Below are positions 39,870 through 41,262 of a stretch of 64,000 nt of DNA, piece after piece. The notes below the pieces were generated by a model, which saw only the letters and a program-made list of their open reading frames with translations, did not search any database and was not told the origin of the DNA. Source of the DNA: Deltaproteobacteria bacterium (lineage in GTDB: Bacteria; Desulfobacterota; Syntrophia; Syntrophales; UBA5619); the NCBI GenBank assembly GCA_021372415.1, contig JAJFUM010000225.1, positions 1 through 64,000 of the forward strand, read 5' to 3'. A program made the translations under genes and the position numbers. Numbering within the stretch: the first letter of the stretch is position 1; every line of letters starts with the position of its first letter.

Positions 39870-41051
39870 TTACTTCCCGGCTTCCTTCTGCAGTTGTTTG
39901 GCCATGTCGGTCTTCTCCCAGGGGTAGTTGTCCAGAAAGAGCGTCCGCGGGATGCGGCGGTAAATGTCGCTGTTGAGCAGGTCGAAGCGCTGGATCATCC
40001 CTGCCGGGGTCAGGTCGAAGAGCTTCTCGATGATCTTCTCCAGTTTTTTGTCGGAAACCTTTCCCGTGCCGAAGGTATCCACGAAGATCGAGAAGGGTTT
40101 TGCGATTCCGATCGCATAGGCGAGTTGAACCGAACACTTCCTGGCCAGGCCCGCCGCAACGATATTCTTCGCGACATAGCGCGAACCAAAGGCCGCGGAG
40201 CAGTCAACCTTCTCAGGGGATTTGTTGACAACTGCGCCGCCGCCGAGTTGGGCCCCCGGATACCCCCCGTAACACTGAACCACCAGCTTCCGGCCGGTCA
40301 CGCCAGAATCGGCGGCACTGCATGAGTTGATGGCCTTCCATTCGCCGGTCGGGTTGAAGAGAAACTCGGTCTTTTTGTCCACGCAGTCCTTCAGACAGTC
40401 GAAGGCGATCTTCCGTGCTCTCTTTTCGATTGCGCAATGGTTCTTTCCTTTGGCGTAGCGATAGTCGATCGCGTTTGACATCAGGACCTTCACCACGCGG
40501 ACGGGTTTTCCGCTCTTTTCGTCGTAGTCCACGGAAACTTGCCCCTTTCCGTCCGGGGCAAACAGCGGGTCTCCGCAATTCTCAAAGGCCCTCATCAACC
40601 GGTTGACCAAGACATAGGTGAGCGGCAGGAGCTCCGGAGTTTCGTCGCAGGCAAAGCCATACATGATTCCCTGATCACCGGCACCGATCTCTTTGTATTT
40701 GCCGGCATCGGCCCGGGTCCCGATGTTGATGTCCGGTGACTGGGGGATGATGGCGTTGAGCACACCGAGGGAATTGCCGTTGAGGCCGACCGCCGAGTCA
40801 TTATAACCGAGACTCAGAACGGTTTCCCGGACGCACTTGTCCAGATCGATCCAGGCCCTTGTGCTGACCTCGCCGCCGATGACACAGAGCCCCTTGCCAA
40901 GAAAGACCTCAATGCCGCAGTGAGGCATTGTGCTGATGTCCATTCCCTTTTTGTGTTCGCGGTCCAATATGGCAGCGATGATATTGGCCGCGATCATGTC
41001 CGCGACAATGTCAGGATGTCCAACCTTTACGCTTTCAGATGAAATCTGCAT
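39870..41051 (-). CDS. metK: Divergent S-adenosylmethionine synthetase
   Basis: Makes S-adenosylmethionine from methionine and ATP; 393 aa. Family motifs are GHPD (11-14), GGEVSTRAWID, GAGDQGIMYG, ADSGVTGRK and GGGAVVNKSPEKVD. The substrate- and metal-contacting His, Asp, Glu and Lys residues that I can align are kept. Several near-invariant positions differ from the E. coli form: GHPDI for GHPDK, DCSAAF for DRSAAY and VVQCYGG for IVDTYGG. ATG 41051 is chosen over GTG 41057 because an AGGAGA site lies seven bases ahead. The gene has its own promoter, a SAM-II-like aptamer and a terminator upstream, which strongly supports the SAM-synthesis role. Confidence 0.88.
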   Translation of the reverse strand: MQISSESVKVGHPDIVADMIAANIIAAILDREHKKGMDISTMPHCGIEVFLGKGLCVIGGEVSTRAWIDLDKCVRETVLSLGYNDSAVGLNGNSLGVLNAIIPQSPDINIGTRADAGKYKEIGAGDQGIMYGFACDETPELLPLTYVLVNRLMRAFENCGDPLFAPDGKGQVSVDYDEKSGKPVRVVKVLMSNAIDYRYAKGKNHCAIEKRARKIAFDCLKDCVDKKTEFLFNPTGEWKAINSCSAADSGVTGRKLVVQCYGGYPGAQLGGGAVVNKSPEKVDCSAAFGSRYVAKNIVAAGLARKCSVQLAYAIGIAKPFSIFVDTFGTGKVSDKKLEKIIEKLFDLTPAGMIQRFDLLNSDIYRRIPRTLFLDNYPWEKTDMAKQLQKEAGK

Positions 41052-41131
41052 GCACACTCTCCTAATCGTGAAATTGTTATTCTCTTATGGATGTCACTCG
41101 TCATAGAGCGGTTCGCGTCAAAGTCCCGCAG

Positions 41132-41161
41132 AATAAAAAACCCACGCCAAAGCGCGGGTTT
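41132..41161 (-). terminator. Intrinsic terminator in the metK leader (attenuator)
   Basis: On the minus strand AAACCCGCGC (41161-41152) pairs with GCGTGGGTTT (41147-41138) around a TTTG loop, with one G-U pair, and runs into six T residues (41140-41135). On the plus strand the G-U becomes an A-C mismatch, so the hairpin favours the metK transcript. It lies 80 bases before the metK start and 13 bases after the aptamer, the position expected of a riboswitch expression platform. Confidence 0.78.
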
Positions 41162-41174
41162 GTGATTTTATTCC

Positions 41175-41225
41175 GGCACTTTAGCACATTTGTATAGCGG
41201 AGCAATTGACCTCTAAATTCCCGCT
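41175..41225 (-). ncRNA. SAM-II (SAM-alpha) riboswitch aptamer, candidate
   Basis: A compact H-type pseudoknot upstream of metK. The P1 stem is AGCGGG (41225-41220) with CCGCT (41200-41196), plus a possible closing G-U. The P1 loop contains AATTTAGAGG and ends in ATTGC. After P1 comes ATACAAATGT and then the conserved GCTAAA box (41185-41180), followed by GTGCC. Loop GGU (41211-41209) can pair with GCC (41177-41175), giving P2 in the register I recall for SAM-II. The UUU in the loop, UUGC before P1', AAAUGU and GCUAAA all match that class. The promoter places the RNA 5' end at about 41227, directly before P1. No covariance search was run. Confidence 0.8.
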
Positions 41226-41233
41226 GTCGCGCT

Positions 41234-41262
41234 GTCATAGGACATGGCATATGAAAAGTCAA
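41234..41262 (-). promoter_or_regulatory. Sigma-70 promoter of metK
   Basis: On the minus strand TTGACT (41262-41257), a 17-base spacer and TATGAC (41239-41234). Transcription would start near 41227, two bases before the aptamer stem, leaving a leader of about 175 bases ahead of metK. Confidence 0.7.

Follow-up and report, generated by a model that had tools for sequence, protein, structure and literature searches.

In SAM-II riboswitches as described, the promoter lies just ahead of P1 and terminators follow P2, and the hosts are mainly Alphaproteobacteria, with a few other proteobacteria and Bacteroides (PMC1273637). Control is mostly transcriptional, and the P2a helix commonly has 5 bp (PMC6061858); the residues that contact SAM in SAM-II and in its translational relative SAM-V are described in PMC6061858 and PMC11508383. 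The termination mechanism of SAM-II was called experimentally unestablished in a 2007 survey (PMC2258182), and an antiterminator for S. meliloti metA could not be predicted in a 2022 study (PMC9373788). Here we analyzed a metK leader on the minus strand of a 64,000-nucleotide stretch of a Deltaproteobacteria bacterium of the order Syntrophales (contig JAJFUM010000225.1, positions 1 to 64,000; hereafter the window). With a probability of about 90%, this leader is a SAM-II-class riboswitch in a variant, Syntrophales-specific form that serves as a transcriptional OFF switch for the sole SAM synthetase gene of its genome. Within the known class the element is a new lineage variant whose expression platform is unusually clear, and that platform, in which the binding box can act as an antiterminator strand, is what is new here.

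The closest described system is the SAM_alpha (metA) element, Rfam family RF00521. Both have P1 and the pseudoknot P2, the AUUU loop strand, UUGC and GCUAAA, a promoter directly before P1, a terminator between P2 and the gene, and an association with SAM/methionine genes (PMC1273637). In contrast to RF00521, the present family scores under the gathering threshold in almost every copy, has a P2 of 3 bp and a J strand reading AAAUGU-GCUAAA, occurs in Syntrophales, mostly on metK, and carries an explicit, co-varying antiterminator drawn from the binding box. The features of the locus, in the order in which they are transcribed, are as follows.

41257-41262, minus strand: -35 box TTGACT, read from the sequence; the top promoter score within the upstream 70 nt, with a 17-nt spacer
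41234-41239, minus strand: -10 box TATGAC, read from the sequence; RNA start expected near 41227
41220-41225, minus strand: P1 5' arm, AGCGGG
41214-41219, minus strand: loop AAUUUA, of which AUUU is invariant in alignment A1
41209-41211, minus strand: 5' strand of the P2 pseudoknot, GGU, with compensatory changes against 41177-41175
41202-41205, minus strand: UUGC, putative SAM-binding core by SAM-II likeness; invariant
41196-41201, minus strand: P1 3' arm, UCCGCU
41186-41191, minus strand: AAAUGU joining strand, conserved in type A copies
41180-41185, minus strand: GCUAAA box, putative SAM-binding core by SAM-II likeness; invariant in A1 and aligned with the GCUAAA of RF00521 and RF01726
41176-41185, minus strand: antiterminator 5' strand, GCUAAAGUGC, overlapping the SAM-binding box and P2; from prefix folding, compensatory pairs and a partner-shuffle test
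41175-41177, minus strand: 3' strand of the P2 pseudoknot, GCC, with compensatory changes
41138-41161, minus strand: intrinsic terminator hairpin, AAACCCGCGC-UUUG-GCGUGGGUUU, from the sequence and compensatory changes; -16.7 kcal/mol
41146-41155, minus strand: antiterminator 3' strand, GCGCUUUGGC, taken from the 5' arm and loop of the terminator plus two bases of its 3' arm; from the same three tests
41057-41063, minus strand: Shine-Dalgarno-like AGGAGAG ahead of metK, read from the sequence
39870-41051, minus strand: metK, S-adenosylmethionine synthetase, 393 aa, from TIGR01034, Pfam and PDB matches; single copy

The expected RNA start lies two bases 5' of P1, and across copies -10-like boxes bunch 9-10 nt ahead of this helix. 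P1 consists of five Watson-Crick pairs and one G-U pair. Its loop AAUUUA would, by analogy with SAM-II and SAM-V structures, provide the third strand of the SAM-binding triplex (PMC6061858, PMC11508383). Thirteen bases separate the GCC of P2 from the terminator stem, whose arms (41161-41152 and 41147-41138) are followed by a U run to 41135; the ATG of metK, at 41051, is 80 bases beyond 41132. The first-pass annotation had read the promoter, P1, UUU in the loop, UUGC, AAAUGU, GCUAAA, GGU/GCC, the terminator and metK from the letters, and each base was found where it had placed it. When distant families are compared, the aptamer-terminator block alone aligns and its flanks do not; in one such family it is 95% identical across 58 nt. 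Order-wide conservation, this flank-free alignment and compensatory changes in P2, terminator and antiterminator indicate that the leader block is more than a chance arrangement.

The gene behind the leader, which had been named as metK, is a true SAM synthetase. Its product scored 322 bits against TIGR01034 (cut-off 309), carries all three Pfam domains (N, M and C) and matches PDB MetK chains at about 1e-81, and no other SAM synthetase gene is present in the genome. The protein has GHPDI in place of the canonical GHPDK and exceeds the metK model by a narrow margin (322 versus 309 bits); judged by its sequence, it belongs to a divergent MetK clade. The SAM-I family (RF00162) had no match in this genome and matched in 2 of the 155 genomes of the order. 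One orthologous metK (L079; G027) lacks the SAM-II element and is preceded by a SAM-I riboswitch instead (56 bits, L079:2838-2933), so that two riboswitch classes have been exchanged on the same gene. The presence of SAM-I on an orthologous metK independently supports SAM feedback through a SAM-sensing leader on this gene.

When the whole window was compared with Rfam at gathering scores, no family was reached. The isolated aptamer (41240-41161), searched against 4227 Rfam families with E values up to 10, gave two matches, both to SAM-II: RF00521 at 12.9 bits (gathering threshold 36) and the long-loop family RF01726 at 11.0 bits. In the latter, the AUUGC and AUGCUAAAG core aligned along the full model, but the score was far under the 44-bit threshold. 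Two relatives, at loci L150 and L159, passed the RF00521 threshold (43.6 and 41.6 bits) and were also matched by our family model R1, a covariance model built from 37 Syntrophales copies (58.2 and 45.9 bits). At L159 both models matched the same element; at L150 they matched different members of a fused pair of aptamers, which adjoin and overlap slightly. Two serial elements at L030 scored 24.2 and 19.6 bits against RF00521. Since two copies pass the Rfam threshold, the family is tied to SAM-II, and membership is claimed for the family as a variant, through L150, L159 and the core features, rather than from the window's own score. The first-pass annotation had proposed SAM-II and a check by covariance models. 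The proposal is borne out by the restriction of matches to SAM-II families, by the relatives above threshold and by compensatory changes in P2; the check itself, taken literally, spoke against SAM-II for the window copy, which is well short of the threshold, and for SAM-II in the two relatives, which the family model also matched and which are above it. On this sequence evidence, we consider the sub-threshold score of the window to be outweighed.

The SAM-II core was invariant in the 37 diverse copies of alignment A1. The residues that contact SAM in the described structures, namely the loop UU, the UU of UUGC and the UAAA of GCUAAA, coincide with invariant columns of A1, and a P1 enclosing the AUUU/UUGC loop was present in all type A copies. 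Several lesser matches were set aside. RF00521 matches at L001-L003 in the window's own genome (12-14 bits) and an R1 match at C254 (18.5 bits) did not rise above chance level and were left out of the counts. Leaders without the element (e.g., L090, ATGTGCTAATTGC) were considered as degenerate SAM-II and rejected, as the motif reads as a promoter of the form TTGAAC-spacer-GCTAAT.

A SAM-V riboswitch, or a separate class with a common binding core, would account for much of this anatomy, as the cores of SAM-V and SAM-II are almost exactly the same and the 3-bp P2 of the present element is closer to the very short, 2-bp P2a of SAM-V than to the typical 5-bp P2a of transcriptional SAM-II (PMC6061858). 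However, SAM-V is translational and has an extra helix, and its model (RF01826) matched neither the window nor any of 20 related loci at E values up to 10, whereas both SAM-II families matched. The terminator platform is of the usual SAM-II kind, and relatives pass the RF00521 threshold. We regard this assignment as very improbable.

It is very improbable that the element is a SAM-II-derived RNA that regulates metK in response to a changed ligand, such as S-adenosylhomocysteine, methylthioadenosine or another metabolite. Ligand-switching riboswitch variants do exist, a SAM aptamer variant that senses spermidine being mentioned in PMC10853860, and some relatives have AGUUA for AUUUA, a change adjoining a ligand-contact position. 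In the window, however, AUUUA, UUGC and GCUAAA, which are contact residues in SAM-II and SAM-V (PMC6061858, PMC11508383), are all kept, and the downstream genes encode SAM synthetases, for which SAM feedback would be the simplest logic.

That the leader is an ordinary attenuator, terminator or protein-binding site with a chance likeness to SAM-II is hardly credible: the best permissive Rfam match of the window was Leu_leader (25.7 bits) and the leader folded alone shows no unusual stability (z = -1.16, which is to be expected of a short pseudoknot that lies outside what the folding program can model), but Leu_leader requires 50 bits and, like the permissive matches to MicC, istR and OmrA-B, reflected the terminator hairpin and vanished once the terminator was left out, while the invariant core is shared by the diverse copies and the element follows metK over two metK clades.

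Base pairing was assessed in alignment A3, which comprises 31 type A elements. P1, P2 and the terminator were jointly 95.2% paired, as compared with 38-54% when the partners were slid, and the observed covariation score was matched by 0 of 500 shuffles; this covariation is clade-structured and the sequences are related, so that the number of independent events is lower than these counts imply. Within P2, 94.6% of cells were paired. Its outer pair occurred as G-C, G-U, A-U and U-A and its inner pair as U-G and U-A, although P2 has only 3 pairs and the outer one was broken in 4 of the 31 sequences. The terminator likewise showed compensatory changes. In P1, the central pairs are constant in type A, and within A3 no variation is seen at four of the six pairs. 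Between subtypes the arms read AGCGG, GGCGG or CAACGG, with whole-stem replacements (GGCGG/CCGCC and CAACGG/CCGUUG) and A-U exchanged for G-C. Compensatory change among relatives, which had been suggested for both P1 and P2, was therefore seen in P2, but not at these four P1 pairs within A3.

Two alternative folds are predicted downstream of P1. The strand GCUAAAGUGC (41185-41176) pairs with GCGCUUUGGC (41155-41146), with two more pairs past one mismatch. In prefix folding, this antiterminator was the best structure while the RNA end lay at 41150-41141 (-23.3 kcal/mol at 41141), and the terminator became best once its 3' arm was out (-24.6 kcal/mol at 41138 and -24.9 kcal/mol in full), so that both folds are energetically feasible. 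Both sides of the antiterminator have changed in other lineages, to AAAGCAC/GUGCUUU in Smithella-type leaders and AAAGGC/GCCUUU in another group; in the second element of L016 the strands are GCUAAAA/UUUUAGC, and in 14 of 31 sequences one pair is A-U in place of G-C. Type A antiterminators scored 16.1 on average with their own partners, whereas 300 partner shuffles averaged 13.6 and reached at most 14.45, a contrast that is inflated by relatedness to an unquantified degree. These averages include mis-drawn hairpins (L148A, L149A and L153) and rows in which automatic P1 finding failed (one L155 copy and the second copy of L158); none of these rows is used individually as evidence. The antiterminator is weakened in three copies (L009, L010 and L012).

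These observations suggest a mechanism. At low SAM, the emerging RNA would pair GCUAAAGUGC with GCGCUUUGGC, and the resulting antiterminator would block the terminator and allow metK to be transcribed. At high SAM, the ligand would bind the pseudoknot formed by P1, the AUUUA strand, UUGC, GCUAAA and GGU/GCC; this would lock the GCUAAA strand away, the terminator at 41161-41135 would form, and transcription would end some 80 nt short of metK. The GCUAAA box and a P2 strand are both part of the antiterminator strand, so SAM binding and antitermination would exclude each other, which would make the element a transcriptional OFF switch. That SAM is the ligand, and that it acts in this direction, is inferred from what is known of SAM-II (PMC1273637, PMC2258182), and by this analogy the leader most likely shuts metK off when SAM is plentiful. 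The co-varying antiterminator would offer a concrete account of how a SAM-II aptamer drives transcription termination.

Model R1 found the element in 84 of the 155 genomes of the order Syntrophales, as compared with 2 of 155 for RF00521 at its threshold. SAM-II feedback on SAM synthetase would thus extend across an order of syntrophic anaerobes in which Rfam finds two carriers, and current SAM-II models leave a large branch undetected. Among 395 genomes sampled evenly over the phylum, just 1 marginal match lay outside the order (E = 0.0017), under filters strict enough that weak copies outside the order could be missed. Among named genomes, 80 metK loci were nearly all titled Syntrophales, Syntrophaceae, Smithella or Deltaproteobacteria-type; window-type metK was carried by Syntrophus, Smithella, Syntrophaceae and other Deltaproteobacteria metagenome-assembled genomes, and the aptamer core was present in just 28 of 76 metK leaders. 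The first recognized gene downstream of 109 copies was window-type metK in 58, canonical metK in 22 and mtnA-metK in 2 (the mtnA identity was confirmed), so that 82 copies, about three quarters, lie ahead of mtnA-metK or of a metK from either of two sequence clades. Of the rest, 13 preceded an uncharacterized family of about 110 aa and 12 preceded other genes, and 2 were too short to tell.

The first-pass annotation had regarded SAM-II in a Deltaproteobacteria-type genome as of interest. The genome is of that type and the element is order-wide in Syntrophales, but the surprise is smaller than claimed because a 2005 paper had already described SAM-II beyond the Alphaproteobacteria (PMC1273637). 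No report linking SAM-II to Syntrophus, or to metK in Deltaproteobacteria, turned up in open-licence papers; an earlier description may exist elsewhere. The first-pass annotation did not mention an antiterminator, nor the spread of the element through the order, its tandem and fused arrangements or its presence on a phage contig.

Forty-four cases of tandem SAM-II have been reported (PMC9481103). The window holds a single copy; several Syntrophales loci hold two serial elements, each with its own terminator (L016:1422-1590 [L016/L043], L024:1502-1673, L030:1501-1681, L146:5604-5779, L148:3984-4161, L149:1378-1555, L151:5443-5611 and L158). At the seven loci given here with coordinates, the second element is of a different subtype (GGCGG...UUGCAGCCGCC...GCUAAACAGCC) and mostly precedes a short unknown protein, not metK. 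At L147:5399-5652 and L150:5202-5461, two SAM-II-like aptamers are joined without an intervening terminator and followed by one shared terminator, and both leaders also hold one more single aptamer-terminator unit. A two-aptamer arrangement with a shared platform is listed only for glycine and guanidine-II, and not for SAM-II, in the table of a tandem-riboswitch review (PMC9481103).

One copy lies on a viral contig (IMGVR_UViG_3300037104_001096 of IMG/VR; L214:1235-2662), on which the riboswitch precedes a canonical metK and a second copy then precedes an unknown gene. This contig carries genes for a terminase large subunit (440 bits) and an excisionase, and a unit matching it was also found in genomes G111 and G112 (L155 and L156). 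That phages can carry metK is known in general terms (136 phage records); no report combining riboswitch, phage and metK appeared in titles or abstracts of the open-licence literature.

The AGUUA variant of AUUUA, beside the SAM-contact uridines, was found at L146, L148, L149, L151, L155, L156, L157, L192-L195 and L197. Tentatively, the Syntrophales copies may form a distinct SAM-II subclass that uses its binding box as the switching strand, has evolved single, serial and fused forms (the last with a shared terminator and possibly cooperative), has been spread in part by phages with their own metK, and includes an AGUUA sub-lineage whose ligand preference may be altered.

The family of about 110 aa (MAI-V-F-TVVIRIETIEKKYPGG-) was found behind the element at L146, L148, L149, L151, L157 and L158. 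For the L158 member, a stretch of 90 residues had no match in Pfam; the family is possibly SAM-related.
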